Shown: positions 6,656 through 42,951 of the stretch, piece by piece
Layout: each line of letters begins with the position of its first letter
Numbering within the stretch: position 1 is the first letter of the stretch
Virus record (IMG/VR): IMGVR_UViG_3300047552_000557
Coordinates: 1 to 45,515 of that record
Direction: 5' to 3' (one strand)
From: a virus
DNA: 45,515 nt
The notes under the pieces: generated by a model
The model's database searches: none
The model's input: only the letters and a program-made list of their open reading frames with translations
Told to the model about the DNA's origin: nothing
Made by a program: the position numbers and the translations under genes

Positions 6656-6844
6656 TTACCCTCCTATAATTTTCGAACAATGCGGACATATCCTATCGGT
6701 TGATTTTTTGAGTGTTATGCTATCCCCACTCACACTAATGTCTAGCCCATCCCCTGTGTATACCCCTAACGAATCCCTAATTTCTTTGGGGATGACAATT
6801 CTTCCAAGATCATCAATCCTTCTTACTATTCCTGTCTGTTTCAA
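6656..6844 (-). CDS. AbrB/SpoVT-type transcription regulator with C-terminal zinc knuckle
   Basis: The 62-residue product carries the swapped-hairpin AbrB motif GIVRRIDDLGRIVIPKEIR, then LGVYTGDGLDI and SITLKK, the whole N-terminal DNA-binding fold of AbrB/SpoVT. A short CPHC tail may bind zinc or mediate contacts. The start codon is TTG at 6844, with AAGGAGG 9 nt upstream; there is no ATG that would keep the domain. It overlaps the upstream gene by 32 nt. It is one of very few recognisable regulators in the genome, so it is a candidate for binding the operators near 7160 or elsewhere (inference). Such proteins act as dimers or tetramers on A+T-rich DNA. Confidence 0.85.
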   Translation of the reverse strand: MKQTGIVRRIDDLGRIVIPKEIRDSLGVYTGDGLDISVSGDSITLKKSTDRICPHCSKIIGG

Positions 6845-7150: not shown

Positions 7151-7179
7151 AGATTACCAATTAAATTGGTAAATGTCAA
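7151..7179 (-). promoter_or_regulatory. Early promoter of the replication operon
   Basis: On the minus strand, a perfect TTGACA (7179-7174) and a weaker TAATCT (7156-7151) are 17 bp apart. Transcription would start near 7144, about 17-20 nt before the first start codon and just past the terminator at 7192-7222. It is the only promoter seen for the replication block until the primase promoter at 399-427. The spacer is filled by a palindrome, so it is probably repressible. Confidence 0.65.
7154..7172. promoter_or_regulatory. Perfect 19-bp palindromic operator in the early promoter
   Basis: TTACCAATT-A-AATTGGTAA is a perfect inverted repeat with 9-bp arms, lying between the -35 and -10 hexamers. 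A third GGTAA half-site follows at about 7139-7143. This is the normal position for a dimeric repressor to block RNA polymerase. The binding protein is unknown. The phage's AbrB-like protein, either RHH protein or a host factor are candidates. Confidence 0.6.
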
Positions 7180-8250: not shown

Positions 8251-8433
8251 TCACCATCCTAATTTCGCCTTAAGTAGAAACGTTACCAAACTAAACAACC
8301 CTCCTGCTCCTATCCTGACGAGCCATTTGATTTCTGAAACGTCTCGCATCATTGCCGTGTGTTTAGTGTCCATAACTGCAAGTTCTTTCTTAATGTCTGC
8401 TATAACTCCTTCTTGTATACATTGATGTGACAT
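8251..8433 (-). CDS. XhlA-like small membrane lysis protein
   Basis: The product has 60 residues: an N-terminal amphipathic helical part (IADIKKELAVMDTKHTAMMR, with SEIKWL after it) and one C-terminal membrane segment (IGAGGLFSLVTFLLKAKLG). This is the layout of haemolysin XhlA family proteins, which act with a holin and amidase in Gram-positive phages. The start overlaps the stop of the giant gene as TAATG, so translation is probably coupled. It heads the lysis cassette: XhlA-like, amidase, holin. Confidence 0.7.
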   Translation of the reverse strand: MSHQCIQEGVIADIKKELAVMDTKHTAMMRDVSEIKWLVRIGAGGLFSLVTFLLKAKLGW

Positions 8434-11400
8434 TAGTCCTCGCCCTCTTCATCTTCTGACATCATTCTTCCACTGATAACATCATTGTAGTATTCTACGG
8501 CTTGCCTTAATTTATCTCGGTCTTCACTATTCAAAGAGCGTACAAATTCCCCCCAACGCCCTTTGGGTACTTGATATGCAGGAGACAAGGAAGCTAGAGA
8601 TATTTTGAGTCCCTTTCTCGTGCCTCCCAACTCGGCGTATCTGCCTATCCAATAATCAGCAAGGTCTCTGTCTCCGTATTTAATCGCTTTTTTGTAATTG
8701 TACAAGGCATTAGACTTATCACTATAAGTTAGAGTCTTGCCCGCTCCAGTCTCTAGTTTGTTGTTCTCTAAAAACCTGTACTTCTCGGAAATAATGTCAT
8801 TATACGCCGCTTCTCTTTCGTCAATAGTGTAAACGAAGAGTTCAAGGAATGAGCCTACGTAGCCTTTGGATGGTATTTTATTGAGTAGGTCATATTCTGG
8901 ACCGAGTGCAAAACTCCTCGCTAAATACTGCCCCCTGTCTCGGATAGTTTTTCGCTCGAAAACATCAGGAAAGAATGTAACCCCTGCCGCCGCTTCTCCT
9001 GCTGTCTTAAGTATCGGAAATGACATTCCCACTGCTTTATTTACTGGGCTTTTAAGTGCTTCTGTGGTCTTTTCTTTGATGGTACGACGACCCGATATTA
9101 AGTCTCTAATATCTCCTAATACATTACCCAACCCAAACCATTCTAAAAATTCCGATAGCGCCCCGAGTCTTGAGAAATACATAATTCTACCGTCAGGCGT
9201 TCTCCCTAGCATAATATGGCTCCTAGATTTAATACTCTCAGGTAACTTGTCCTCATCATCTTTGAAGAGTAGGGTGTTCCACAGGTCAAAAAGTACGGTC
9301 AAAGCAAAAGCACCGAATACAGCTTTACCTAAGTTAACCGCCAACCCAAACCCTAGCTTTTTACCGCCTAAAAGAGTTGACCTTCCAACTGCCGCCATGA
9401 ATCCTGTGTCATTCATGGTGTTCCTGAAAGCACGTATGTAGAATCTTGCGTTAGTCTCGACAAACCTGTAGAAATATGCCACTCTATCCGCTAAATACTG
9501 CCCTTGTAATGATACATCATCATAAGCCCCTAGTAATTCATTAGCTAACTTGTAAGCTTTATCATCGACGTTCTTGATTGCATCTACCTCGCTCTTGATT
9601 GACCCTCCGTAGTTCCTAAGTGTTCCTGCTAAAATCTGTTCCTTAAAACTCAAAAAATTAGCGTATCGAAGTATTGCCTCTCGGTAATCTGTACTTAGTC
9701 TAACACCCCTCCAGTAGCCTTGTATAATCCGTAGCGGCAGGGTTGATAGCCGTTTATCCGCTGTGAACTTATCAGCAAACATTTTGAGTCGGTTAATGTC
9801 GCCCATTTCTTGAACCTGGAGAAATGATTGCATCCCTCCACGTTCAAAGAAGGCTAGAATATCACCGTCCATTTGCTTGTTTTTGTACATAACGTCTCTA
9901 AGTTCTATTACTGCTTGGGGTACCTTTATAAAACCTTTTGGATTTCCGAAAAACACATGGTCTGCATCTCCGCTCAAGTTTCGGATGTTATACTTTAGAT
10001 ATCTTCTCGGGCTTAACAATTGATACACTTTCCAATATCTTATCGAACCTCTTAAGATTTTCTCTATCCCCTCTTGGTTGTTCGGCGGTATAAGACTCTC
10101 AAGGGTTGCAACTAGTTCTTTTGGAAGCACTAAACTTTTGTACTCTTTACCTACCACCGTTTCTTTTTTAAGTTGTGATTTGTTAATGTTGAGGGTTGTC
10201 AACAACTCGTTAATCAGGTCTTGCGCCAATCTATCGGGTATTGAATATACCGCATACATGGCGTTACCTTTTCGTGGTTGCCAATCAATGTGAGTTGAAG
10301 GGATCAAATTCTCCCATGTTTTATATTTCTTACCCAGTTTTTGTTTAATAAACTCCCTTTTTAAAGAAGTGTATTTTAAGACAGTTCTAGCCTCCCTGAC
10401 TCCAAGTTCGGCATTGCCTTGTTTGGATAGTTCCCCTAAATATTCGTACATTCTATTAACGTTATCGGTATCAACGTCGGTATTATTTCTACTCCTTAAT
10501 GCACGGTGCACGTCTGGATATTCGTGTTTACCCCACAATTCACCTCTTTGGGCAAAGGTAGCTAGTCTACTAAAAGACATTGCTAGCAGTTGGTTGTACT
10601 TTTTGACAACAAGTTCTGTTTCGCTTATAGGACGCCCTAGCTCGTCTACAGGTGCTTTCGGGTCGGCTAATTCGGATTCTATGATAGCGTTAAAATTACT
10701 TTTATTTTCTGACTTAGCCTGTGCTTTTAACTCGTCTAAAATATTGTGTTCCGAAGAGTCTAAATACTTAATCATCTTGGCTTTTTCAATGTCATTTCGC
10801 ATTTGAACCATTACTTCACCCTCAACAACTAGATAGTCTCTTGAAATATCTAGTTGCGAACCCGACCTTTGTTTAAGAAAAGATGCTCCAGTAGGCGTCT
10901 TTAATTTCTGGCCGAGATTTGCCCCGCCATATTTTACATTGTAGTAATCAATGACTACGTGTCGATAATAGTTCTTGCGTGTGAGTCTATCCTCTACCTT
11001 AAAACCCACACTGTGCATAGCGTCAGTATACTCACGTTTCAATTTGTTCCACATAATAGCTCTGTCAAACAGGGCCCCTCTAATTGCTGTTGTAAGGTGC
11101 GGCTCTAAAAGGTCAAGTTCTGCTTGTATCTCTTCGGCTGTCTCGTAGCCATAAGGCACAGCTTTACCCTCTTTAGCTGTCTCAAGCAGGTCATCGAATA
11201 TGACCTTACGTACAAATATATCGAACTCTTCAGTTTTTAAATCCTTAAGGACGTAACTCATATCCTCTATCGTAAGCCCTAACGCTATGTTTCTACTCTT
11301 TAAAAGGGCCTGAAGTTTTTCGCGCACTTCAGAATATACCGATCCCCGTTCTAGCTTATCAAAACGCCCTCTCTCAAAGGATGTTTTAGTATGTTTAAGA

Positions 11401-14400
11401 GCCGCAATTAACTTATCAAACAAGGTTTGATTCCGCACATAGGCGTCCCCATAGCGTTGTTCGGCACCTTCCTTTGCGAGTCCTTCGTATTTGTCAACCG
11501 AGAAACTTACATTTTCGCCATCTGTGCGAGGGTTGTCTGCTTGTGCTGTCTTAGTGATTTTATTTCGGAAGTCGTTAGCATTTCTGACTTGTCTAAGGAG
11601 GCTTCTCCCTTCGGCTTCTGTGAGTTCTCCGACGTCTTTTGCGATGCCGTACTCATTGAGAAGATTGTTAATTTGTCCATCAAATTTTACCTCCAACTTA
11701 TTTTTAGTCTCTGGCGTAAGTGAAAGTTGAAGAGGAGCCGCATAGCCTGGAGCTATTGCCACTACCGCCACAACGTTACCGCCGTTTTCTAGTATATGGT
11801 TTCTTAATCCTTTGATTGTACCACCTTGAGTTACAACGTCGTCTATTATTATGTAATTATAACCACTTTTTACCTCTCCGTCAAATGCAACTTTTTGAAT
11901 AAGTCTCTCAAGTTTTGACTTGTCGGTGCGGTGCGCTCTATTGCTCTGTACAATATCATTGTCTATTTCTTGACCTGTTATCCTAGCAATTCTACTCGCA
12001 AAAGCAAGAGGTAGTACATTCCTACCCGCAACCTCTTCGGCATGGACTGGCACTAATATGGCATCAGGATACTGTTTACCTAACTCTCTTATTTTGTCCG
12101 TCTTTATGACCTTATCTATCAGAGTTACGGCTGCTCTAACATCCCCTCGCTTTGCCTTATACCACAGTTCATAATTTCCATTGGTCTTATCTTTGAAGCG
12201 GCTAAGATTTATCATTATCTCCATTTTGGGGAAATTAGCAGGCCAAACTTTGTCAACCGAGAATAAGGGTTGCCCGTTTTCAGGAAGACTCTTTTTCATA
12301 TTTGGTGTTATGTCTATGCCCTGTTGGGTTAAAACTACTTCATCAAATCTCACCTTTGCACCTAAATAGTGTATGAAGTCTGATTTACGTGCAAAACTAT
12401 TATTATTTTTTAATTCCGATTCCAACCTGTTATATGCCACTTCCAAGCCCACATCTTCTATGTCGTATATTAAAGCGTTCACTTCATCAAGTAAATACTC
12501 TTCATACTCTAAAATGTCTAAATCGGTTTTAAATTTGTTTTCTTCCCAAAACTTAAAGGACTGCGCCTGTAGTAGTTCTTTATCTTTTAACTTTTCCAGT
12601 TGTTCAATATCTAATTTTGTGCCTTCATATCTGCGGGTACCAAGTTCATACGTGGGCAACTCAACAACCCCCACGCCATTGTCCTTATCCCACTGCTTGA
12701 CATATTTATCTAAAAAGTTCTTTAGCTTCTGGTCGTAGAATACCCTCATACCATGACCGCCAATTTTAAGGTCGTCGCCTTTAAACTCTTCCTGCCCTGC
12801 TAACACCTTTTTGGTTATGTCAGCTCCTACATATTTTTTGAGTTTTTTTATGCTGTCAATGTCCATATCACTAAATACTTTTACCCCATCTTTGTATGCT
12901 ATTAGGCGGTATCTATCTGGTGTATCGGTTGCTGCTACGTGTATATTATCAACATCCTTTGAAAGATTATACCTTTGGCTCTGTTGCTCTCCTGTAGTCC
13001 ACGCCATTTTATCAAAGTTGTTATCCGCGGCATACTTAATCAACCTTTTAAGCGCTAACTCGTGCCAAGTAGCTTTAAAAGGCGCGTCGGGTACGGCACT
13101 AGTACTCGGTCCCGATATAAACGTTGACATGAAACGGTTTGCCAGTTCTTCACTACCCCCCGCAGCTCTTATAGTCGCACCTGATGTTGACGACATAGCA
13201 AGTCCTAGAGCTTCAACCTCTTTTGCTATCTTTCTAAAGTCTTCTGTGTCCCTATACCCCTCTTCCAGTCCCTTTTGGTGCCAGTCTGACTGTATTTCTT
13301 CGATGAAAAGAACCTTCTTTCCGTCCTTGTCAATCCTTGTGTCAAACCTTGCGTGCGCCAATATATTGGAGCTTTCCCAATGTGAGTGTCTGTATGTGTC
13401 CCTTCCTGGAACTGCTGGTGCATCCTCTAACTGTAAGAGTACGGTCTGATAGTCTGTGTAGTCACCTTCCCTTAGTGTTTCATCTTCATATCTACCTGAT
13501 GTGTCGTAGTTTTCTCCTCCAGGCTCCTCTCGACCGTAAGTGACTGATGATTCAAAAGCCGATTTCACCCAATAATCTATACTTTCTTCGGCGCCCTCAA
13601 CTAACTCTTCCCAAGTTTTATAGTAATTGCGGGCAAAAGATGCGTAATCTGATACTAGGTAGTATCCGCTAGGGTCAAGACCGTAGTCGGTTTCCTGATC
13701 GGCGTAGTATTTATAGTGGACGGAGCTGTAATCTTCTGGCCAAATAACTTTTAGGTATTTGCCCTCTTCGCTGTCTATGGTATAAGCGTCACGATATTTT
13801 CTTTTGACGTCTTCTAGTGCGTCTAACATTTCTTCTTCGGTTTTAAAAAATTGCGAGTCTTCACGGTACTCGTTTATCACCCACGAATACTGTACTTCAT
13901 TATCGGAACCGTAAGAAGCGATCTCTTTAATCTTAATCTCGTTGGCTTTTAGCCAATCTAAAAGCTCTTGCTTATCAACTTTTACCTTGTCTTTCAAATA
14001 CTGCTCAATGCCGCTCCAGTATATTTCTTCCTTCTTCGCCCCACTATTGACTATGCCCATTACTGTCTTCCAATCGGATGTTTTCGACATTTTATCAGTA
14101 ATGACTTGTTGCATTTTGGAATAGAAAATAGGAGATTGCTTAGACACCGAATACTTAATATCCGAGTCCGAGAGTTTCATTATAGCGGCATCTTTTCTAA
14201 GGGCTTTGAACAACTCTCCAAAACGCATGTTAATGACTCCACGCTCCCCACCTTCGGGGTAAGGTTTGAACATATCACTAAAACCGTTTTTGTGTGAGTG
14301 GACTAAATAATCACTTTTTTTAGTACCTAATTTATCTTGTACATATGCCCCAAATGCCCTTGCCGCTAGTTCTACATCTTCGGCCCAATACTTTTTATTC

Positions 14401-17400
14401 GGATTAAATATTGTGTCAATATTTTTGGCTTCCGTTACATAGTTCGTTATTTTAGTACGCTTTTTGGAATTAAACGCCTCCTCTGTTAACTCCTGCCTTG
14501 AATCGTTGGCCCATTCTTTGTACATGCCCATCCATTTAAACTCTTCGGCGTCCATATCCTTTTCTCTGACCTCTTTGTATATCTTGGCTATCTTTTCTAG
14601 GTCTAGTATTTTCCTGGCATCCTTAAAGTCTTGTAGCTGTTTATCAGTTGCCATAGGAATGGGTTGTTCAACCCTCTCTTTGAGTTTTCTGTCATACACC
14701 CATCTTGTACCACCCCTAAGAAGTGTTTTTTCGGCGTTATCTAGGGCAAGGTCTAATTTCTTTTCATAAGATGTTATTCGTTCTTTGGTGCTATCAAAAT
14801 ATTCTTCTTTGGTCATAGGTCTTTCATACATGGTATTTGTCAAATTCTTAAGAAGTTCTACAATATTCGGGGCTAGCTTAGTATTTTTAGTCACGCCTGT
14901 AGTAACGTAAGGCATAGCTGATGACTTGTCTCCTGATATACGCCCTAAGTAATCATCTAAGGCGTGGTACCACTCGTGAGCTAGTGAGCCTGCACCCTTT
15001 ATTTTGGTTAAATTAATAACAACTTTAGAAGGTTCGTAATGCGCCACAGCGGCGTCTTTGCCACCGTGTCCACGCGCTCCAAAAGCAATACCTAGTTCGC
15101 CGTTTAACGACATGTTTATAGGGTCTAGTTCTAACACTGCGGCCAAATCTCTAAAAGCGTCATAGGCATAATTAAGTGATGCTTGGCGTTCAGCTTGGTT
15201 ATTCCAATTGCCAAATTCTCCGCCTCGGAATCCAAAATCAGCTAAAAACTTTTCAGGAGTTATGTCTTTACCGTTTCTATAGTCTATACCATCACGCTTT
15301 ATGCTCTTAAGTTGCGGGATGTTAGGCACTTCTGGTTTCTCTACGGCTTTAACAAGGGTTGGTCTTAGTGTATTTTCTAAATAGGTTTCGGCCTCAACTT
15401 TATCTGCAAACCCATCGACAAGTATTTTATAACTTTTCCGTATTTCCCAAAGTCCAGTTTTAGTATTCTCGGCTATCACTATATCTTTTTTCCAAAGTTC
15501 CTGTTTTGCTGGCCATCCTGTTTTTTCAATTTTCGATTCAGCTCTTGACACGTCATATACGCTTGGACGCATAGCAGCTATGGTCTTGTTCTCTATAAAA
15601 TGTCGGACTTTCATGTCGCCTTTCCACTCACCCATGCCGTATTGTGTGGTGGGTTTGACATAATACCCATTGGCAACATATATATTGTCGAATAGATTTT
15701 TAATGTCACCCATATCCTTAACTTTTGACACAGCATCCCTTACTTGCCCTATGTAGGTTATATATGCCTCTCGATAGGCTCTGTTCTCTTCAGGTGAAGC
15801 TACAATAGGAATCTTTGCAGGCAAACTGTCTCGTACGAGTTTTACAAAATATGCTGTGGTTTTGTGCATACCATCTTCTATTAATTTTTCATAGTCTATT
15901 TTCGGCCAAATATTATCCTTCGTGACATACTTTGCCGCTTCTCTATCCGTCATATTGTTTAAGTCTTCTATGACCATTGCCTTATTAGCCCAGGTATCTT
16001 TCCTTGCCCCGCCTATCTTTTCCCCAAAATCTTTTATTTCTGTTTTAGGTTTAGTAACTTTAGGTTTAGCAACCTCTACCTTCTCCTCTATCTTCTCCTC
16101 TAACTTCTCCCCCTTAACCTCTGACTTAACCCCCAACTTAACCCCTGCTGTATCGGCTACTATTTTCTCCACAATATCAGTAAAGGCAATGTTGGCTCTT
16201 TTTATTTGTTCCGACGTCAAAAGGTTTCCTGAATAGTATTTTTTTAAACTCGAGAACAAATTCTTTACTATATCAGAAAGTTTTTGGAATAGAGTTCTAT
16301 TTTTCTTTTCTAACCCTTCCCAAAATGTTTTGTCTGTGAACTTTTCCCCGAAAGCATCGGCTACCATTTCATCTACTACCATTTCTTTGGTTAAATTGTC
16401 TGTGTAAGTTTTGCCACCTGTTAGCATAGAGGTATAAGTAGCAAGGTTTTTATCCGATACCGTGCTTATCATGTACTCTGTAAGCTCTTGTGTCAGGTCA
16501 GGATAAGAGTGTTTAAAACTATGCCACGCCTCGTGACCAACAGTAAAAACTAAGTGGGATTTTGCATCGCTAGTCTCCCCCCTTCTCGTATTTACAAATA
16601 TGGTTTTGTCTAGCTCTTTGCTGTACCAACCCCCGACAACCCCCTCCCCCTCGAAGAACACAACTTTAGTTCCGAGAGCTTTCATCATATCAGCGAGTCC
16701 CATTTGAAAAGGAGTTTTGGCATCAACCAATATTGAGGTACCCATATTTATATTAAAGTTTTTCATGTATTTAAAGGCGTTATTAAACTCGTCTTGTACC
16801 TCTTTGCTGTATCCCGCGGTTGGTTCAGGTTCTACCTTTGGAGGTTCAAGAGTTTTTGGCTCTCTTTCCAACACTGGCGGTTTTGTCTGGTCTGCTATTT
16901 TGATACTTAGTTTTTTAAATATTTCGGCCACTGCCTCAGCATTATTTCTAACTTCTAGTTTGCCTACTCGTGAGTAGTCTACTTTTAAGTATTCTCTTGT
17001 ATTGTTCTTGGCTAAAGTCGCCTGCTGTGCCCTTATATCACTGTCAATATCGGCTATGACTCTTTCTTTTTTTGCTTTTGTCTCATATTTCGTATCAGAC
17101 ATTTTATTTCTGCGAATTTTTAATCTCTCTATTTCCTTCTCGAGTTCGTACTTCTGCTCTTTTGTCAGGGGTTCTGACTCTTCCCCAAGTTGCGTTATAA
17201 GTTCTCTTGCTATTTTCTGCCTCTGGTCATAACTATATCCATGAACTGTTAAACCCTTATAGTCTAATAAGTCTAGGAGTTCTTCAGGTTTAAGTTGCTT
17301 ACTTTCTACTTGTCGTAAATATTCTGTTAATCCTAGCGTTTGGTTTCCGGCGTTAAAGTAATCGAAAGAGGCGTCATACCACTTCTTAAAATTCTCATCC

Positions 17401-20400
17401 CTAAACATTTCAGCGAACGCCATCTCCGTATCAGGTATTTCTACGTTATCCACTATGTAACGTATAAAACGCTGTGCGTTTATTTTATTGGTAAATGTTT
17501 TCCCCGCGTATAGTCCTGACGGAGCGTGTAATATCTGTATACGCTTAGAATCGGTCTTTATCTTATCTTGAGGGGTTCCTTTTGCATGTCCACCTGTTAC
17601 AGTAGGACTCGCCGCTAGATTGCCGTATGTACTACCCAAAACTTTTATTTTATAGGGTTGTCCTGTTGCACTGTCCATGAACACGTGTTCTACATAACCG
17701 CTTTTCATTTTTGTGACAGGTTTCTTTTTTGTGGTATCCTTCTTAGGCTCGGAAACAGCAGGCTTTGGTTCTTCAACCAAAACATCGGGCTTTTTCGTGA
17801 CCAAATCATCATCATACTCGTCGGGAAAAACGTCTTTGACTTTTCCCACTAACTCGGGGAACGTCTCGTCAACTATTGAATTTAATTTTTCTCTCTCATC
17901 CTCCAATTCTGGATTATCCGCTATATAATCGCTTACTAAAATCTCTTTGGCTCTGTCATAGCCCTTTTGCTTGGTATCGCTTATCAGCTCTTCTCTTCCC
18001 CCCGGTGAGGACAGATATTTTTTAAACTCTTTAAAAGTATTGGACTTTTTCGTGACCTTAGCTAATTCAGGGTAATCTCTAAGCACTTCTTCTGGAATTA
18101 CCTTACCTTCTTTTAGCGCTTTTTCTATAACTCTTTTGTGACTTTCGGCAACCAACTTTTCCGGGAGTGCGCTTCTTTCAATGTATATATCCTTCGGAAC
18201 CTGCCAGTCCTCTTTTCCATACGAGTCATTGACTATTTTTGCTCTTTTATTGGCTTCTATTTCTTCGTAGTATTTATTTTTTATGTTTTCTATAAACTTT
18301 TTATCATTTAGTAATTTGTTTTTATATTTTTCTTCCCAGTACCTAAACTCTTCTCCTTGATGTGTAAACATAGGTTTTGATACTTTTTTATTGGTTTTAT
18401 TTCTATCCTTGTCCTCTAATGTGTCATAACCCATTTTAGTCATAGCTTTTTCAAACGCAGTGCTTTCAATAGCCCGCTTTATTTTATAAGTTAATTGCGG
18501 GTCTTTAACGTCTTCAATTTTACTTTTTTCTAATACAGGTTGTTTTTGTATTCTTTCAGGAACAAAAGGCTTTACTATCTTTGGTCCTTCGGTCTTCGGT
18601 ATGGGTTGCTCTCCTAATAATTCTTTGGCTCTCTTCAAATCAGCTTCAGTATATTCCCTAGTAGCGGGTTGCTTCGGTTGCTTAAGTGCCTGCTTCTCTG
18701 CTTTAGTAAGAGGATTATAATAATCTTGTATCTTTTTCACGGGTTGAGTTCTGCCGTCCACAATCTCTTGTGCATACTTCCTAGCAATCTCGTCGGCTAT
18801 GGGTTGGGCATCGGTTTTAGAAGTTCCACTAGCTACTATTTTTTTATATTCGGATCTTCTTAGATCAATGACTTTTTGTCTCTCTTCAAAAGTCAGTTCA
18901 AATTCTTGACCGTATAAAGTGTATTTCTGCGGTGCTTGTAGTTTTGCTAAGTCTTCTGAAATTTCTTTCGTCTCTTCGGTCTCAATCGGCATTTCTTCAA
19001 GGGGTGTTTCTCCAGTTCTAATTACATTCTCGGTCTGTATGTCCTTATCTAACTGGTTGACAAAATCTTGATACATTTCAGGGTCTATAGCGTCAGGATT
19101 GGTAACTATCGCTTGCGCCATTTCTTTTGAGGCGTGACCATCAGGCATGTTAGATGCTACTAGTAAATCATTTTGTATGTTTTGTGCGATGTGTTGGGCG
19201 GTTGGTATTTGTGACACAACTCCAGTTGCACTGAACATTCCTCCAATAATGAAACCATAGACCCCCGCCTCGGTCATGTCCTTAACGTTAAATAGTCCTC
19301 CCTCTCCGAGTTTTCCATCTCGCCAATAACCTATCCATTCAGGATCGGGTTTATATGTTATCCTTCGGGAAATCTCACCAATAGGCTCCATTACAACTTC
19401 TTCTACTGCTTCACCGGAAGCCCTTTTAAGACCCCACTTCCCAAGTTCTTTTAGCGACTTTTTATATTCGGTCGAAAGTAAAGGCATATCCTCAAAGAAT
19501 TTACCACCTGGTATGAACCCAAACATTTTCTCGGTTAATGCTTCGGCGGTTCCCATTATTATCCCGTATACCGCCGCATCTTCTGGCGTTGCCCCTTCTT
19601 TTTCAGCCTGATACATGTAATTACCTGCGGCTGTGACGCCCATTACTGTTAAATTAGCGCTGACGGTAGCGGCGCCCACAGGGCCCCCAATCAGCATACC
19701 AGTTGTAGTACTCCCTATGGCACTCGATAAGTCTTGCGCTTTTTGACCCCACCAACCCTTTTTTTGATACAGTTCTGACTCCCTGTCTTCGATACCTCTT
19801 TCATATGCCATATCGAATATATCAGCGTTCTCGTCTCCATATGGTCTAAGCCTTCCAGCCGTATTTGCAATTTTCATGGCAGGAGTTACCACGTCAGGTA
19901 ATATTCTATCAAAATTTGTACGTTCGCTACCCTCTTCTAATCCCTGTTCGTATGACCTCGGCATTAATATTTTTTTGTACCAGGGTTGTCTTTCTAAATA
20001 GGTATCGTACTTTTCTAGCGTCCCCCCTGGGTATAGTGGCTTGTTTTCAACTTTTGGCGTTTTTACATACGTAGGCGTTGGTGCCTTTGTATCAGTAAAC
20101 CACTCTCTACTTTCAAGGACTGTGGGTTCTGGTTTTGGAATATTAGTAATCGGTTGTTGTATTAAGCCGGCTAAGTCTAAAGGACTCTCTGTTTCGGGTA
20201 TATTTGCGTAAGGCACAGGTGCCACCGGTAAAGGGTTGGTGTACGGCGGCGTGTTTAAAGGAGGGGGCGGTTCTTCTGGTAAGAATTTTTTCATATCATT
20301 ATAAAAGTTTTCAGGTAACAGCAAAGGCCCTCTTCCACCCTTTGGTTGATTACCCACCTTGACATCATAATTGTATAAAAAATCCTGTTCTTCTGGCGTT

Positions 20401-20435
20401 AACCCTGCTTTACGAGAACCTTTTTTATTAATCAT
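8433..20435 (-). CDS. Giant 4000-residue polyvalent virion protein with two HExxH peptidase-like motifs and a phosphoribosyltransferase domain
   Basis: One gene fills about a quarter of the genome. In order it shows: a Pro-rich N-terminus; hydrophobic Gly/Ala stretches near residues 240-400; long charged regions; a zinc-peptidase-like HEAWH near 1299; an LPD1-type region (DFGFRGGEFGNW, then LNGELGIAFGARGHGG, then LAHEWYHALDDYLG near 1818); an EIQSDWHQKG / MAWTTGEQQSQRYNLSK module near 2380-2490; a PRPP-binding motif IIIDDVVTQGGT near 2863 typical of phosphoribosyltransferases; a conserved helical region; and a membrane-like segment near 3700. Such polyvalent proteins are packaged and injected with phage DNA (family knowledge). 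Injection, and action on host defence or metabolism, is inferred here. Start and stop both overlap neighbouring genes (ATGA, TAATG). Confidence 0.85.
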   Translation of the reverse strand: MINKKGSRKAGLTPEEQDFLYNYDVKVGNQPKGGRGPLLLPENFYNDMKKFLPEEPPPPLNTPPYTNPLPVAPVPYANIPETESPLDLAGLIQQPITNIPKPEPTVLESREWFTDTKAPTPTYVKTPKVENKPLYPGGTLEKYDTYLERQPWYKKILMPRSYEQGLEEGSERTNFDRILPDVVTPAMKIANTAGRLRPYGDENADIFDMAYERGIEDRESELYQKKGWWGQKAQDLSSAIGSTTTGMLIGGPVGAATVSANLTVMGVTAAGNYMYQAEKEGATPEDAAVYGIIMGTAEALTEKMFGFIPGGKFFEDMPLLSTEYKKSLKELGKWGLKRASGEAVEEVVMEPIGEISRRITYKPDPEWIGYWRDGKLGEGGLFNVKDMTEAGVYGFIIGGMFSATGVVSQIPTAQHIAQNIQNDLLVASNMPDGHASKEMAQAIVTNPDAIDPEMYQDFVNQLDKDIQTENVIRTGETPLEEMPIETEETKEISEDLAKLQAPQKYTLYGQEFELTFEERQKVIDLRRSEYKKIVASGTSKTDAQPIADEIARKYAQEIVDGRTQPVKKIQDYYNPLTKAEKQALKQPKQPATREYTEADLKRAKELLGEQPIPKTEGPKIVKPFVPERIQKQPVLEKSKIEDVKDPQLTYKIKRAIESTAFEKAMTKMGYDTLEDKDRNKTNKKVSKPMFTHQGEEFRYWEEKYKNKLLNDKKFIENIKNKYYEEIEANKRAKIVNDSYGKEDWQVPKDIYIERSALPEKLVAESHKRVIEKALKEGKVIPEEVLRDYPELAKVTKKSNTFKEFKKYLSSPGGREELISDTKQKGYDRAKEILVSDYIADNPELEDEREKLNSIVDETFPELVGKVKDVFPDEYDDDLVTKKPDVLVEEPKPAVSEPKKDTTKKKPVTKMKSGYVEHVFMDSATGQPYKIKVLGSTYGNLAASPTVTGGHAKGTPQDKIKTDSKRIQILHAPSGLYAGKTFTNKINAQRFIRYIVDNVEIPDTEMAFAEMFRDENFKKWYDASFDYFNAGNQTLGLTEYLRQVESKQLKPEELLDLLDYKGLTVHGYSYDQRQKIARELITQLGEESEPLTKEQKYELEKEIERLKIRRNKMSDTKYETKAKKERVIADIDSDIRAQQATLAKNNTREYLKVDYSRVGKLEVRNNAEAVAEIFKKLSIKIADQTKPPVLEREPKTLEPPKVEPEPTAGYSKEVQDEFNNAFKYMKNFNINMGTSILVDAKTPFQMGLADMMKALGTKVVFFEGEGVVGGWYSKELDKTIFVNTRRGETSDAKSHLVFTVGHEAWHSFKHSYPDLTQELTEYMISTVSDKNLATYTSMLTGGKTYTDNLTKEMVVDEMVADAFGEKFTDKTFWEGLEKKNRTLFQKLSDIVKNLFSSLKKYYSGNLLTSEQIKRANIAFTDIVEKIVADTAGVKLGVKSEVKGEKLEEKIEEKVEVAKPKVTKPKTEIKDFGEKIGGARKDTWANKAMVIEDLNNMTDREAAKYVTKDNIWPKIDYEKLIEDGMHKTTAYFVKLVRDSLPAKIPIVASPEENRAYREAYITYIGQVRDAVSKVKDMGDIKNLFDNIYVANGYYVKPTTQYGMGEWKGDMKVRHFIENKTIAAMRPSVYDVSRAESKIEKTGWPAKQELWKKDIVIAENTKTGLWEIRKSYKILVDGFADKVEAETYLENTLRPTLVKAVEKPEVPNIPQLKSIKRDGIDYRNGKDITPEKFLADFGFRGGEFGNWNNQAERQASLNYAYDAFRDLAAVLELDPINMSLNGELGIAFGARGHGGKDAAVAHYEPSKVVINLTKIKGAGSLAHEWYHALDDYLGRISGDKSSAMPYVTTGVTKNTKLAPNIVELLKNLTNTMYERPMTKEEYFDSTKERITSYEKKLDLALDNAEKTLLRGGTRWVYDRKLKERVEQPIPMATDKQLQDFKDARKILDLEKIAKIYKEVREKDMDAEEFKWMGMYKEWANDSRQELTEEAFNSKKRTKITNYVTEAKNIDTIFNPNKKYWAEDVELAARAFGAYVQDKLGTKKSDYLVHSHKNGFSDMFKPYPEGGERGVINMRFGELFKALRKDAAIMKLSDSDIKYSVSKQSPIFYSKMQQVITDKMSKTSDWKTVMGIVNSGAKKEEIYWSGIEQYLKDKVKVDKQELLDWLKANEIKIKEIASYGSDNEVQYSWVINEYREDSQFFKTEEEMLDALEDVKRKYRDAYTIDSEEGKYLKVIWPEDYSSVHYKYYADQETDYGLDPSGYYLVSDYASFARNYYKTWEELVEGAEESIDYWVKSAFESSVTYGREEPGGENYDTSGRYEDETLREGDYTDYQTVLLQLEDAPAVPGRDTYRHSHWESSNILAHARFDTRIDKDGKKVLFIEEIQSDWHQKGLEEGYRDTEDFRKIAKEVEALGLAMSSTSGATIRAAGGSEELANRFMSTFISGPSTSAVPDAPFKATWHELALKRLIKYAADNNFDKMAWTTGEQQSQRYNLSKDVDNIHVAATDTPDRYRLIAYKDGVKVFSDMDIDSIKKLKKYVGADITKKVLAGQEEFKGDDLKIGGHGMRVFYDQKLKNFLDKYVKQWDKDNGVGVVELPTYELGTRRYEGTKLDIEQLEKLKDKELLQAQSFKFWEENKFKTDLDILEYEEYLLDEVNALIYDIEDVGLEVAYNRLESELKNNNSFARKSDFIHYLGAKVRFDEVVLTQQGIDITPNMKKSLPENGQPLFSVDKVWPANFPKMEIMINLSRFKDKTNGNYELWYKAKRGDVRAAVTLIDKVIKTDKIRELGKQYPDAILVPVHAEEVAGRNVLPLAFASRIARITGQEIDNDIVQSNRAHRTDKSKLERLIQKVAFDGEVKSGYNYIIIDDVVTQGGTIKGLRNHILENGGNVVAVVAIAPGYAAPLQLSLTPETKNKLEVKFDGQINNLLNEYGIAKDVGELTEAEGRSLLRQVRNANDFRNKITKTAQADNPRTDGENVSFSVDKYEGLAKEGAEQRYGDAYVRNQTLFDKLIAALKHTKTSFERGRFDKLERGSVYSEVREKLQALLKSRNIALGLTIEDMSYVLKDLKTEEFDIFVRKVIFDDLLETAKEGKAVPYGYETAEEIQAELDLLEPHLTTAIRGALFDRAIMWNKLKREYTDAMHSVGFKVEDRLTRKNYYRHVVIDYYNVKYGGANLGQKLKTPTGASFLKQRSGSQLDISRDYLVVEGEVMVQMRNDIEKAKMIKYLDSSEHNILDELKAQAKSENKSNFNAIIESELADPKAPVDELGRPISETELVVKKYNQLLAMSFSRLATFAQRGELWGKHEYPDVHRALRSRNNTDVDTDNVNRMYEYLGELSKQGNAELGVREARTVLKYTSLKREFIKQKLGKKYKTWENLIPSTHIDWQPRKGNAMYAVYSIPDRLAQDLINELLTTLNINKSQLKKETVVGKEYKSLVLPKELVATLESLIPPNNQEGIEKILRGSIRYWKVYQLLSPRRYLKYNIRNLSGDADHVFFGNPKGFIKVPQAVIELRDVMYKNKQMDGDILAFFERGGMQSFLQVQEMGDINRLKMFADKFTADKRLSTLPLRIIQGYWRGVRLSTDYREAILRYANFLSFKEQILAGTLRNYGGSIKSEVDAIKNVDDKAYKLANELLGAYDDVSLQGQYLADRVAYFYRFVETNARFYIRAFRNTMNDTGFMAAVGRSTLLGGKKLGFGLAVNLGKAVFGAFALTVLFDLWNTLLFKDDEDKLPESIKSRSHIMLGRTPDGRIMYFSRLGALSEFLEWFGLGNVLGDIRDLISGRRTIKEKTTEALKSPVNKAVGMSFPILKTAGEAAAGVTFFPDVFERKTIRDRGQYLARSFALGPEYDLLNKIPSKGYVGSFLELFVYTIDEREAAYNDIISEKYRFLENNKLETGAGKTLTYSDKSNALYNYKKAIKYGDRDLADYWIGRYAELGGTRKGLKISLASLSPAYQVPKGRWGEFVRSLNSEDRDKLRQAVEYYNDVISGRMMSEDEEGED

Positions 20436-37176: not shown

Positions 37177-38538
37177 CTATGCTATGTAGCTCTCGCAGTT
37201 ACCATCCTCGTCGTCCTCATCGTCCTCCACAGCCACGTCTGGGTCTGTAGCTACTGGTCTATTCGCAAAAAGGTATCTGATTGCATCGGGTCCGTGGGTC
37301 AACTCGTGAGGCTCTAATGCTACGTCGTTCGGGTCTTTTTCATCTATTTGTAGTTGCGGTAGTGTACGTATAAGGTTCTTGCAGTTTTTGAATATTCGAA
37401 GCCTCGATGTCCTGATAGGCGCTCCTGTCTGCTCGTCAACCGTCTCTATGACTCGTAGCCACTCTTTGACGTTGTACCAACCCATTACACGTTTGTTTGA
37501 TGCTTGTAAGAGAGGCAGTTTGTTTTCAGTGAATATGTCTGCCGCGCTCTTGCCCGTGTCCTGTCTGCGATTCCACAAGTCAGGCGGTGCATATCTAAGC
37601 GGTATTGTGTCCCCACCACACTTGATAATCTCCTTTGCCGCCGCTGATATGATCAGGTTGGGCTTGTATATCTCGTTGTACACATATGCGTTGTACTGTA
37701 GGTCTACCGCTACAAAGTAACACGCCAACATGTCCAACCCATAATCTAGCGTTATATAACGATTCCAGTTTTTTGGTATCTCGAAAGCCTTGATAACATG
37801 CACGTTGTGGTCAAACTCTTCAAAGTATTGTCCCTCGAATATGTCCCAGTTGCCAAACAGAAACGCCTGACGTTGGTTCTCGGGTAGGTTCTCAAGCCTG
37901 CGTATGTATGCAGGGTCATTGAGCATTAATATAGTGTTGTCATACACGGTTGCAGGTATAAATACACGCCTGTTCCCTGATACCTTGTCTCTGTAGGTCT
38001 TTGCGCCGTAACCTGTAGCTTGTATGTAGTCCTCTTTGACATATGTATGACCGACCCCTCCTGGGTTGCCCGTTGCCCTAAAGCGTGGTGGATAGCCCTT
38101 TGGTGACCGTAGGCACGATAGCAATACTTGTACAGCCTCTCTGGTGTGTTTGGTCAATTCGTCTATGCCTACAAAGTCCATGCTGCGTCCCTGATAACCG
38201 TCGGCGTCCTCTTTGTTGCGAATGTACCTAAACTTAATCACAGAACCGTTCACAAGGGTTGCATAGTGACCCGACTTGTTGTATGGGTGCCGTTGTGCCG
38301 CCCTCGGAACCTTCTCTTGCCACTCCCTTATAAGGTTTGCCTCTAAGTCGTCGTACGTCTCCCTGAAAAGGTATATAACCGCTCCTGGGTATTGCAACCC
38401 ATACGCAAACGCCTCCATGACTAATGCACAGGACTTGCCCCCGCCCTTTGCACCCCCGTAGAAACACTCTTCCGCGGGACACTCATGAAACTTCTGTTGC
38501 TGTAGATTAGGTGCGTATGCGACATTAATCGTCAGCAT
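37177..38538 (-). CDS. Terminase large subunit
   Basis: The 453-residue ATPase and nuclease drives DNA packaging. The Walker A motif (YGGAKGGGKS) is at residues 25-34, Walker B (DFVGIDELT) follows, and the coupling motif TGNPGG is further on. The nuclease domain starts near ITLDYGLDMLACYFVAVD, with the Asp of the RNase H-like fold. I chose the ATG at 38538 (MLTINVAYAP), overlapping the terS stop by 14 nt. The longer reading starting at 38616 would run far into terS and lacks a ribosome binding site. The C-terminus is acidic (VAVEDDEDDEDGNCE). Confidence 0.93.
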   Translation of the reverse strand: MLTINVAYAPNLQQQKFHECPAEECFYGGAKGGGKSCALVMEAFAYGLQYPGAVIYLFRETYDDLEANLIREWQEKVPRAAQRHPYNKSGHYATLVNGSVIKFRYIRNKEDADGYQGRSMDFVGIDELTKHTREAVQVLLSCLRSPKGYPPRFRATGNPGGVGHTYVKEDYIQATGYGAKTYRDKVSGNRRVFIPATVYDNTILMLNDPAYIRRLENLPENQRQAFLFGNWDIFEGQYFEEFDHNVHVIKAFEIPKNWNRYITLDYGLDMLACYFVAVDLQYNAYVYNEIYKPNLIISAAAKEIIKCGGDTIPLRYAPPDLWNRRQDTGKSAADIFTENKLPLLQASNKRVMGWYNVKEWLRVIETVDEQTGAPIRTSRLRIFKNCKNLIRTLPQLQIDEKDPNDVALEPHELTHGPDAIRYLFANRPVATDPDVAVEDDEDDEDGNCESYIA

Positions 38539-39037
38539 CAGGCAACAACCCCTTATTTCTGTCCCTCTCGAGCTGTAAGTCTTTGACACTCGGTCTAGGT
38601 ATATTGAAGTTGACAACTATGCCTGTATCTCCCATCATTTCCAACTCGGAGCGGTCTGTCCATAACGCTTTTTGCCTATTCTTAAGCCAAAATTGAGCGG
38701 CCCCAACGTCGGCGGGTACATGCTCTATGACCTCTACGCTGTCCATAAACTTTCCCATGTGCGTAGCATGTTTGGTAGCTGTCCTATCGTAGCCTAAAGC
38801 TCTCTGGTACAAGGACGCCGCCACTTTTGTATCTGCGATAGTGCGTCCTGACTCGATGGCGGCTTTAAATTCAGGTCGGGTCTGCATCCAATCTGTTATA
38901 GTAGACGGTGCTACGCCAAAGGCAGTTGCTAAGTCAGAGTTGTTAAGTCCGAGAAGTGCTAATTTGTAGCCCCGATCGATATGACTCGATTCGTAGCGTT
39001 TCTCAATTGTATTATTATGTATCTTTTTTTCGTCCAT
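38525..39037 (-). CDS. Terminase small subunit
   Basis: The product has 170 residues from MDEKKIHNNTIEKRYESSH. The N-terminal helix-turn-helix is visible (GLNNSDLATAFGVAPSTITD, then WMQ), followed by the conserved block ADTKVAASLYQRALGYDR. It recognises packaging DNA and feeds TerL. I chose the ATG at 39037 because AAAGGTGA sits just before it. An upstream ATG at 39103 would fall at or before the predicted transcription start. It is the first gene of the late operon. Confidence 0.88.
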   Translation of the reverse strand: MDEKKIHNNTIEKRYESSHIDRGYKLALLGLNNSDLATAFGVAPSTITDWMQTRPEFKAAIESGRTIADTKVAASLYQRALGYDRTATKHATHMGKFMDSVEVIEHVPADVGAAQFWLKNRQKALWTDRSELEMMGDTGIVVNFNIPRPSVKDLQLERDRNKGLLPDADD

Positions 39038-39056: not shown

Positions 39057-39077
39057 GATTGTATACAATGTACAATC
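39057..39077. promoter_or_regulatory. Inverted repeat in the terS leader
   Basis: GATTGTA-tacaatg-TACAATC has 7-bp arms, and inside it ATTGTATACAAT is a perfect 12-bp palindrome. It lies about 20 bp downstream of the expected terS transcription start. The core TACAATGTA also occurs in the palindrome at 39765-39781, so one regulator may read both sites (inference). Confidence 0.5.
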
Positions 39078-39104
39078 TTGTATCCATGTAAGTGTTTGTA
39101 CATA

Positions 39105-39134
39105 AGGATATTGTTATAAATATATAATTGTCAA
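39105..39134 (-). promoter_or_regulatory. Late promoter driving terS and the structural operon
   Basis: On the minus strand, TTGACA (39134-39129) and TATCCT (39110-39105) have an 18-bp spacer. The start would be near 39098, leaving a leader of about 60 nt. Its -35 overlaps the -35 of the oppositely directed promoter at 39128-39156 almost completely, so only one can be used at a time. Confidence 0.6.
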
Positions 39135-39144
39135 ATTATATATT
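39119..39144. promoter_or_regulatory. 26-bp inverted repeat centred on the shared -35 region
   Basis: AATATATAATT and AATTATATATT are perfect 11-bp arms around GTCA, exactly over the shared -35 elements. Its A+T-rich arms could be an operator for a dimeric regulator or simply flexible promoter DNA. Confidence 0.45.
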
Positions 39145-39156
39145 ACCTGATATTAT
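39128..39156 (+). promoter_or_regulatory. Plus-strand promoter for the hidden RHH gene
   Basis: TTGTCA (39128-39133) and TATTAT (39151-39156) are 17 bp apart, each with 5 of 6 consensus bases. It points away from terS toward the gene at 39234-39395. It is the best promoter-like pair noticed on the plus strand. Confidence 0.6.
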
Positions 39157-39168
39157 GACCTGGTCATA
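39154..39168. promoter_or_regulatory. 15-bp palindrome over the -10/start of the RHH promoter
   Basis: TATGACC-T-GGTCATA is a perfect inverted repeat with 7-bp arms, overlapping the -10 and the likely start near 39163. This position suits autorepression by the RHH protein (inference). Confidence 0.5.
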
Positions 39169-39181
39169 TATATAAAATGGT

Positions 39182-39203
39182 AAAAAAAAAAAAAAAAAAA
39201 AAA
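39182..39203. repeat. A22 homopolymer in the RHH leader
   Basis: There are twenty-two consecutive A on the plus strand between promoter and gene. Lengths of such tracts often vary by slippage, and the assembled length may be inexact. It may bend DNA or keep the leader unstructured. Confidence 0.8.
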
Positions 39204-39240
39204 TTGTCGAAAATTGTCGAAAAAGGGTGAAAAATGTCGA
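39201..39240. repeat. Four phased decamer repeats
   Basis: AAATTGTCGA (39201), AAATTGTCGA (39211), AAAAGGGTGA (39221) and AAAATGTCGA (39231) follow each other at exactly 10 bp, one helical turn. The third copy forms the ribosome binding site and the fourth contains the start codon of the RHH gene. Copies on one face of the helix suggest cooperative protein binding. Confidence 0.65.
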
Positions 39241-39395
39241 AAAATATAATAAGAAAAAAAGCAATGCACGTATACATATCCGAGTTCGTCAAACAGGAGT
39301 TCGACGATTTTTGCAAAAAAAATGGACTAAAGCATGGCTTAGTCCTGGAACGCCTTATTATTTTATTATTGAAAAAAAATAAGGACGCTAAGTAG
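39234..39395 (+). CDS. Hidden ribbon-helix-helix regulator, apparently the only plus-strand gene
   Basis: The 53-residue product begins MSKNIIRKKAMHVYISE. The pattern fits an RHH (CopG/Arc-type) fold: a beta strand (AMHVYISE), helix 1 (FVKQEFDDFCKKNG) and helix 2 (LKHGLVLERLIILLLKKNK). RHH dimers insert the strand in the major groove and commonly autorepress. Start evidence is AAAGGGTGA 6 nt before the ATG; a second ATG at 39264 gives a 43-residue form lacking part of the N-terminus. A near-consensus plus-strand promoter and a palindromic site lie upstream. The gene runs head-on toward the replication operon, and that operon's two terminators lie within or at the end of it on the other strand, so the two sequences are constrained together. 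It is short enough for gene finders to skip. Confidence 0.6.
   Translation: MSKNIIRKKAMHVYISEFVKQEFDDFCKKNGLKHGLVLERLIILLLKKNKDAK
39315..39345 (-). terminator. Second of two tandem intrinsic terminators
   Basis: GGACTAAGC/GC(T)TTAGTCC forms a stem of about 9 bp with one bulge and a three-base loop. On the minus strand it is followed by ATTTTTTTT. It acts after the terminator at 39371-39400 and stops readthrough from the replication operon into the late promoter region. It overlaps the RHH coding region. Confidence 0.6.
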
Positions 39396-39412: not shown

Positions 39413-39706
39413 CTAATATTCAAACCAAATGATTATTGATGTTTTGTAGCTTTCAGGATTAGGTGAATTGGTCGTACAATCCGTCGCCAACAACCCTGCA
39501 CAACCCTCATCATTCTTGAACACTACCAGCAAACTTTCATCGTATGCCCCTCGCCCACAGACGCTCACGCCCATAGGTGCGTTGAACACATCTCCTACCT
39601 TGCTTTTCTTTAGTTCGTCCCACGATACCGTCCTGTCGTAGTTCGACTCCCAGTCCCCGCAACTCACATTTATTGCGGACTCTTGCTTTATTACTTTCGT
39701 ATCCAT
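39413..39706 (-). CDS. Hypothetical protein, last gene of the helicase block
   Basis: About 97 residues from MDTKVIKQESAINVSCGDWE at 39706, with GGAGG 5 nt upstream. The ATG at 39718 has none. The sequence is alpha/beta with several Cys (NVSCGDWE, VSVCGRGAY, EGCAG, ATDC) and a hydrophobic SIIIWFEY end. No family is known. It has its own promoter (39755-39784) with a perfect palindromic operator, so it may be regulated separately from the helicase. Confidence 0.6.
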   Translation of the reverse strand: MDTKVIKQESAINVSCGDWESNYDRTVSWDELKKSKVGDVFNAPMGVSVCGRGAYDESLLVVFKNDEGCAGLLATDCTTNSPNPESYKTSIIIWFEY

Positions 39707-39754
39707 ACATTCCTCCACATTTTTTGTCGTACCCTTAAAAGGCTACGCAAGTAT

Positions 39755-39784
39755 ACAATAGCATACAATGTAATACATTGTCAA
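39755..39784 (-). promoter_or_regulatory. Promoter of the 39413-39706 gene
   Basis: On the minus strand, TTGACA (39784-39779) and TATTGT (39760-39755) have an 18-bp spacer. The same -10 (TATTGT) is used at 42972-43000. The spacer contains the palindrome at 39765-39781. Confidence 0.55.
39765..39781. promoter_or_regulatory. Perfect 17-bp palindromic operator
   Basis: ACAATGTA-A-TACATTGT has 8-bp arms and no mismatch, lying in the spacer and touching the -35. Its TACAATGTA core recurs at the terS leader (39057-39077). It differs from the early operator TTACCAATT, so at least two DNA-binding specificities are implied. Confidence 0.6.
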
Positions 39785-42311: not shown

Positions 42312-42531
42312 ATTCTCCCTCCTCGAGCGCTTTCACTAGATTGCAAGCCTCATCACCTACTACTAGCCCCTGCACAATACGTTCTTCGCAAAATACTTTT
42401 AAATCCTCGGGCAACCCAACCAACTCGGTCTTAGCGTCTATGGTCAAGTCCCACTTTGCGCCCTCCGGGTCTTCATCCCAATGCAACTCTTTTTCAATCT
42501 TGACTATTCTATTCGGTAATATTATCCACAT
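42280..42531 (-). CDS. Hypothetical protein with MW..P.(R/K)IV N-terminus
   Basis: The 83-residue product is acidic (EDPEGAKWDLTIDAKTELVG; LVKALEEGEYVEN). Its first residues MWIILPNRIVKIEKE align with the N-terminus of VRR-NUC (MWRTVPSKIVRATKE). AGGAGG is 10 nt upstream and the end overlaps the nuclease start by 32 nt. It may be a partner of the nuclease; this is only inference from the shared tag. Confidence 0.55.
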   Translation of the reverse strand: MWIILPNRIVKIEKELHWDEDPEGAKWDLTIDAKTELVGLPEDLKVFCEERIVQGLVVGDEACNLVKALEEGEYVENSTEQDS

Positions 42532-42536
42532 AATGT

Positions 42537-42821
42537 TTACGCCTCCTTCTCTAATTTTTCTAATCGCTCAAACACCCGTATCAACCCTAGTAGTGTGCTA
42601 GACGTTACTCTGCGAACGTGGGTGTCTATCATCTCACTATTCGGGTAGTCACACACACCGCCCTCGCCGACTTCCACGCCTAATAAATCTCTCACAAACA
42701 ACCCGAACTTAAACTTCCCTACTTGAAGGGTCATAAATTTTGTAGTCTTTCCGTCAGAGTGTAATTGCTCTATGCAGTCCCACTCTCTCCCCAAATACTC
42801 TACTTTACTTTTTATTTCCAT
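42537..42821 (-). CDS. Hypothetical protein
   Basis: The 94-residue product starts MEIKSKVEYLGREWDCIEQ, with a beta-rich middle (FMTLQVGKFKFGLFVRDLLG) and an Arg-rich helical end (THVRRVTSSTLLGLIRVFER). The start lies within the end of the RHH gene (17-nt overlap). No family recognised. It is the second gene of the helicase block. Confidence 0.55.
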   Translation of the reverse strand: MEIKSKVEYLGREWDCIEQLHSDGKTTKFMTLQVGKFKFGLFVRDLLGVEVGEGGVCDYPNSEMIDTHVRRVTSSTLLGLIRVFERLEKLEKEA

Positions 42822-42951
42822 TCTCCAACTCCCCCAATTCTTTTAGTACCAATAGTCTTATCCACTGAGAAACATTGCCTTCGACCGCAACCCTCTCAAT
42901 AAACTCGACATCACCCTCTTCTAGTCTAACTGTTATAGGTATTTTTGCCAT
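42805..42951 (-). CDS. Ribbon-helix-helix DNA-binding protein
   Basis: The 48-residue product begins MAKIPITVRLEEGDVEFIER. The RHH pattern is complete: a strand (IPITVRL), helix 1 (EEGDVEFIERVAVEG), then N-V-S-Q-W-I-R-L-L helix 2 with the N-cap typical of CopG/Arc folds. GGAGG is 7 nt upstream of the ATG. It is the first gene behind its own promoter (42972-43000), next to the repeat-rich non-coding region. It may autorepress or bind the repeats (inference). Confidence 0.75.
   Translation of the reverse strand: MAKIPITVRLEEGDVEFIERVAVEGNVSQWIRLLVLKELGELENGNKK

Follow-up and report, generated by a model that had tools for sequence, protein, structure and literature searches.

Genome organization of the phage

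The sequence studied is an IMG/VR virus record of 45.5 kb with a G+C content of 42%, analysed over its whole length and referred to below as the window. A survey of its open reading frames and genes bears out the statement of an earlier note on this DNA that nearly all genes lie on the minus strand. In minus-strand order, the early/replication operon comprises the genes of an AbrB-type protein, a PolA-like polymerase, a VirE-type primase, a VRR nuclease and an SNF2 helicase; it spans the ends of the record, and its final gene is that at 39413-39718. The late operon starts with terS and runs through to the lysis genes near 7.4 kb. Profile and sequence searches returned phage terminase matches for TerL and matches of its own type for the VirE-type primase. 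The terS start is most likely 39037, since the predicted start of the late RNA (about 39098) falls within the longer reading of the gene; this ATG is preceded by the Shine-Dalgarno sequence AAAGGTG in the context AAAGGTGAAG-ATG. Searches of the record found no tyrosine integrase, RNA families or tRNAs.

A single protein of 4000 codons, encoded on the minus strand at 8433-20435, takes up a quarter of the genome. At 7154-7179, on the same strand, an early promoter-like TTGACA is followed by the palindrome TTACCAATT-T-AATTGGTAA, and just before this site stands a terminator-like sequence, AAGCGA...TCGCTTATTTTTTT, which would close the late operon. A 48-aa protein encoded at 42805-42951 on the minus strand has an RHH-like pattern (MAKIPITVRLEEGDVEFIERVAVEGNVSQWIRLLVLKELGEL) and only a weak match to Pfam DUF6290; it is a candidate regulator.

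Table 1. Features of the replication/late junction and related sites in the window.
Feature	Position	Strand	Basis or remark
AbrB/SpoVT-type DNA-binding protein, second early-operon gene	6656..6844	-	62 aa, TTG start; TIGR01439, PF04014
terS, terminase small subunit, first late gene	38525..39037	-	PHROG 309, E 2.3e-30
Palindrome GATTGTA-TACAATG-TACAATC in the terS leader	39058..39078	.	sequence
Putative late promoter, TTGACA-18-TATCCT	39105..39134	-	promoter scan
Perfect inverted repeat, 4-bp spacer	39119..39144	.	11-bp arms 39119-39129/39134-39144; covers both -35 hexamers
Putative promoter of the RHH frame, TTGTCA-17-TATTAT	39128..39156	+	promoter scan; TG before the -10
Palindrome TATGACC-T-GGTCATA (TATGACCTGGTCATA)	39154..39168	.	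7-bp arms and central base; candidate autoregulatory operator
Run of 22 A	39182..39203	+	no other homopolymer in the window reaches 10
10-bp repeat array TTGTCGAAAA TTGTCGAAAA AGGGTGAAAA ATGTCGAAAA	39204..39243	+	sequence
SD-like GGTGA, third repeat unit	39226..39230	+	sequence
53-codon frame, probable small RHH protein	39234..39395	+	ATG start; ORF list and weak family matches
Intrinsic terminator within the RHH frame, opposite strand	39324..39345	-	-10.0 kcal/mol, z -3.1
Intrinsic terminator closing the replication operon, overlapping the RHH stop codon	39383..39400	-	-13.8 kcal/mol, z -4.4
Last replication-operon gene	39413..39718	-	101 aa by longest reading; family searches without match
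Promoter-like TTGACA-18-TATTGT of the 39413-39718 gene	39755..39784	-	palindrome ACAATGTA-A-TACATTGT at 39765-39781

The junction between the replication and late operons

The region between the two operons is well supported as a divergent, operator-rich junction (Table 1). Both minus-strand terminators fold far better than their shuffled counterparts. The 53-codon plus-strand frame had been placed exactly between the replication terminators and terS, which is not so: one terminator sits inside the frame and the other over its stop codon, so that any transcription of the frame would oppose that of the end of the replication operon.

Two divergent promoter-like sites with overlapping -35 hexamers are present as claimed, at 39128-39156 on the plus strand and 39134-39105 on the minus strand; sites of this kind are not above chance in so AT-rich a stretch, where seven were found against 4.0 +/- 2.4 expected. 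The inverted repeat over the -35 overlap is also there, is matched by 0.2% of local Markov shuffles (P about 0.002), and has no second copy within the window. As for the 15-bp palindrome, it is perfect, and a palindrome like it is reached by 0.1% of local Markov shuffles (P about 0.001), but it does not cover the start codon of the frame, as had been supposed; it spans the end of the -10 element and the position at which RNA from the plus promoter is predicted to begin. With divergent promoters and symmetric sites over their shared region, the layout does resemble that of a divergent repressor/operator switch.

The palindrome in the terS leader has GTATACAAT/ACAATGTA in common with the operator-like site at 39765, and within the window GTATACAAT occurs only in this leader (39058-39078) and at 39751. 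Judging by these shared sequences, the GTATACAAT and ACAATGTA/TACATTGT palindromes may constitute a second candidate set of operators, or a second control, connecting the final gene of the replication operon to the late operon.

Coding potential of the 53-codon frame

The frame is indeed present on the plus strand of this otherwise minus-strand genome (39234-39395), and we consider it likely to be a gene. Scored by the phage's own codon usage it is the best of the six frames, as is the case for genuine genes, and the GGTGA stands 3 bases before its ATG. The RHH pattern ascribed to it was partly upheld by a profile search, which gave weak but specific matches to RHH families, both under the curated cut-offs: NCBIfam NF010256 (RepA2/CopB) at 1.5e-4 and 21.7 bits (cut-off 87) and Pfam PF10723 (RepB-RCR_reg) at 0.0012 and 19.1 bits (cut-off 21). 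These matches cover residues 7-47 of the 53-aa product, and 10 spurious ORFs of comparable length were all without an NCBIfam match. The frame probably encodes a small RHH protein.

AlphaFold2, run on the single sequence as a monomer, predicted two helices and no strand (pLDDT 77). Under the same conditions the second RHH-like protein of the window (42805-42951) was likewise strandless, so the single-sequence prediction decides nothing on the RHH fold and was discarded as proof of it. Among the hits of a Foldseek search with the model were an entry that contains MatP and the DNA-binding domain of the antitoxin CopASO (TM 0.72 by target, E 8.5), neither of them significant. The earlier note had proposed conservation in related phages as a check; the IMG/VR scan yielded no relative of the frame, and a phmmer search with the product gave no match among ORFs from all six frames of 294 fetched loci.

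The frame could, alternatively, be no gene at all, its 53 codons being an accident of an AT-rich spacer that holds the late promoter and two terminators in tandem, with the AAA codons arising where the terminator T-tracts are read in reverse. The overlap of both terminators with the frame fits such an accident, as do the lack of a homologue, the chance level of the promoter-like matches and the absence of a predicted strand. It is countered by the codon-usage score, which is that of genuine genes, by the SD-like GGTGA before the ATG, by the agreement of two libraries on RepA/RepB-type replication regulators where spurious ORFs give none, and by the palindrome at the predicted RNA start; we regard it as unlikely.

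The repeat array in the leader

From the plus promoter to the ATG, the leader of the frame contains the run of 22 A and then four 10-bp units, neither of which the earlier note mentions. Units 1, 2 and 4 hold exact Spo0A-box cores, TGTCGAA, at 39205-39211, 39215-39221 and 39235-39241, two of which form a 10-bp tandem; the GGTGA belongs to unit 3, and unit 4 overlaps with the ATG. Three cores within 37 bp compare with 0.02-0.05 expected per 308 bp, the copies not being independent evidence, because the 10-bp units may come from slippage or tandem duplication of one box. No other pair of cores on the same strand within 45 bp occurs in 2.4 Mb of loci chosen independently of the motif.

This stretch can also be read as a replication or bending element, possibly an origin, in which AT-rich palindromes, the A22 run and A-tracts phased at 10 bp would be the working parts and the RHH protein a CopB-like regulator of copy number or replication. 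A-tracts phased in this manner imply curved DNA, and the best family matches of the product are plasmid replication regulators. However, there is no DnaA box nearby, the two of the window lying at 42522 and 45129, and the stretch lies between two operons, a place at which one expects promoters and terminators. CopB/RepA2 proteins are themselves transcription repressors. An origin at this place seems to us very unlikely.

The 10-bp spacing of the array is that of tandem 0A boxes, and its sequence suggests that the leader cores may be binding boxes of Spo0A, the master regulator of sporulation. The core 0A box TGTCGAA is common to Spo0A of B. subtilis and C. difficile (PMC3485338). At B. subtilis spo0A Pv and abrB, 0A boxes downstream of the promoter repress by roadblock (PMC12090719). 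Lying upstream of the late start by about 110-145 bp, the cores are too far away for ordinary activation of the late promoter.

Tandem boxes in other phages and genomes

In IMG/VR, the 10-bp tandem TTGTCGAANNTTGTCGAA has 61 distinct occurrences, 35 of them intergenic, whereas the same boxes at 11-bp spacing were intergenic in 9 of 45 cases (Fisher p 1.3e-4) and the reversed motif in 6 of 31 (p 7e-4). Several of the tandems are followed, at much the same distance each time, by a TATAAT-like -10 and an AGGAGG start. The 10-bp tandem thus looks, from its placement, like a functional element in some phages. Truncated genes for the Spo0A effector domain occur in gut phages (PMC10294663). A phage-encoded effector domain of this type was considered as the reader of the boxes and rejected, being absent from this record and from 34 others with intergenic tandems. 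The junctions of loci L002 and L003 hold no comparable element.

In the phages L170, L182, L195, L197, L199 and other low-G+C phages of IMG/VR, two or three TTCGACAA boxes at 10-bp spacing are located upstream of both a TATAAT-like -10 and an AGGAGG start, at a distance that hardly varies, and the genes behind these tandems include those of small membrane or zinc-ribbon proteins. Such sites look like an activator-type class of phage promoters.

Among 350 genomes of the Sporomusaceae class, the perfect tandem was found in four and the reversed control in three, which is no enrichment, and only one of the four carries Spo0A. As a signature of Spo0A-bearing genomes the perfect tandem was accordingly dropped: since it is not enriched in this class, it is no proven Spo0A signature there.

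The junction may alternatively be a switch internal to the phage, in which the RHH protein, or the AbrB-type protein of the phage, would read the 10-bp repeats and the palindromes, and the match to Spo0A boxes would be a coincidence. Cooperative binding of RHH proteins to short direct repeats is common; omega and MetJ, for example, recognise short repeats in tandem. The array is situated in the RHH leader in register with the ribosome-binding site and the start codon, as expected of an autoregulatory array, and the perfect tandem does not track Spo0A in the 350 genomes. Yet the repeat unit matches the 7-bp 0A core exactly, its spacing is that of tandem 0A boxes, and similar 10-bp tandems stand between genes in unrelated phages. 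We rate a purely internal switch as rather doubtful.

Relatives and probable host

The protein encoded at 6656-6844 matches TIGR01439 at 1.6e-11 (43.7 bits, above the cut-off of 28.3) and PF04014 at 4.8e-9 (36.5 bits, cut-off 24.7), as well as SpoVT/AbrB structures at 1e-12 to 1e-10; its phage relatives are mostly in Paenibacillus phages (Paenibacillus larvae). The relatives of the helicase, with up to 65% identity, are almost all in Bacillota, and of 25 tested genomes that have a relative of the helicase, 18 contain Spo0A. The nearest relatives of the VirE-type primase are those of phages of Paenibacillus, Staphylococcus, Fusobacterium and Clostridioides. This affinity of the replication genes suggests a phage of Bacillota. 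Taken together, the Spo0A-box-like array and the AbrB-type gene point to an input from host signals rather than to a closed phage switch.

No close relatives were found by searches with terS and the portal, and the TerL matches in IMG/VR reach only 29-43%. The closest syntenic relative is contig G015:C7, from a Sporomusaceae genome with Spo0A, in which the genes from PolA to TerL stand in the same order, with identities of 40-61% (54% for the PolA-like polymerase). An AbrB equivalent was sought at the edge of this contig and rejected, as nothing aligned.

Proposed regulation of the junction

As a tentative reading of the sequence, to which we give somewhat less than an even chance, the 39.0-39.4 kb region can be considered an early/late junction with an autoregulated RHH repressor, tuned by a roadblock of host Spo0A. 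The two minus-strand terminators would end the replication operon and, about 200 bp on, the minus promoter would start the late operon, with the plus promoter, back to back with it, reading the short probable RHH repressor. The late and RHH promoters would compete through their overlapping -35 elements under the symmetric site. We infer that a dimer of the expressed RHH protein binds the inverted repeat (39119-39144), the palindrome at its own start (39154-39168), or both, and so may hold down its own and the late promoter until its level drops; the palindrome would probably serve to repress its own promoter and the inverted repeat to repress the late one. The array of 0A cores would stand at about +42 to +79 of the RHH leader, with the last core over the start codon; Spo0A~P, if present in the host, might block elongation through the leader, giving less repressor and shifting the balance of late transcription according to the sporulation decision of the host. 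The net effect on the late genes could be reversed if the RHH protein activates the late promoter. The absence of relatives of the RHH frame counts against this Spo0A-tuned repressor, as does the syntenic Sporomusaceae phage, which lacks the 0A tandem and has an XRE regulator instead. The lack of enrichment of the perfect tandem in the Sporomusaceae class, the chance level of the promoter matches and the distance of the boxes from the late start also weigh against it.

Phages of spore-formers face hosts that may go dormant in the middle of an infection, and the phi29-like phages are the one documented case found of host Spo0A controlling phage promoters. If true, the Spo0A-tuned junction would add a case independent of these, in a phage that replicates by another system and at the point where its early genes give way to the late ones. 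The control of phage promoters by host Spo0A is known from the phi29 family; its combination with a divergent RHH repressor switch, in a phage with a different set of replication and packaging genes, would be new. Together with the spacing data on intergenic tandems, phage reading of the sporulation decision through tandem 0A boxes would become a general, testable hypothesis. The wider proposal, that a tailed phage with no relation to phi29 ties its early/late switch to host Spo0A by perfect tandem boxes over the leader and start codon of the RHH gene and has an AbrB-type protein of its own, and that this is one instance of a wider habit of Bacillota phages whose promoters are marked by precise 10-bp tandems of 0A boxes, we hold to be doubtful. 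If the RHH protein reads the array instead, the locus would be a compact, one-gene autoregulated junction of ordinary interest.

Comparison with known systems

Phage phi29, the nearest known parallel, replicates by protein priming, and Spo0A affects, among other sites, its divergent early/late promoter region A2c-A2b-A3. The present phage resembles it in having Spo0A-box sequences at promoters, to which binding has been shown in phi29 and is only predicted here. In place of the protein-primed replication and gp16-type packaging of the phi29 type it has TerS/TerL packaging (with a PHROG 309 terS), a VirE-type primase and a PolA-type polymerase, and so does not belong to that type; a short RHH frame, moreover, stands as regulator instead of p4/p6, and the boxes are located in the leader of the regulator gene. 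PMC9437464, citing Meijer 2005 and Castilla-Llorente 2009, reports that the lytic cycle of the phi29 family is suspended during host sporulation through sites for host Spo0A at the phage promoters.

With B. subtilis spo0A Pv and abrB the leader shares the core and the position of the boxes downstream of a promoter; here, however, the cores are perfect, keep a 10-bp register from about +42 to +79, and lie in a phage leader, reaching the start codon. The likeness to RepA2/CopB and RepB-RCR_reg proteins is a weak sequence match over residues 7-47, whereas the product has 53 aa against 81-85 and is encoded at a phage early/late junction with no plasmid replication genes.

Both divergent repressor switches and phage repressors of the RHH type are well known from textbooks, P22 Arc and Mnt being RHH repressors. 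The CI/Cro and Arc/Mnt switches likewise have divergent promoters with operators in the shared region, but here there is one regulator, no CI or Cro was recognised, no tyrosine integrase was found, and the opposing operon is the late operon. The Sporomusaceae phage G015:C7 is similar in its PolA-to-TerL order, its opposite-strand genes and the presence of a regulator at the same junction, that regulator being the product of an XRE gene (L279:12675-12917) and not an RHH protein, with no 0A tandem. It is also worth mentioning that the replication/late junction of this relative (L279:10932-12917) contains an opposite-strand gene block, the divergent XRE gene and TTTGCA-type repeats.
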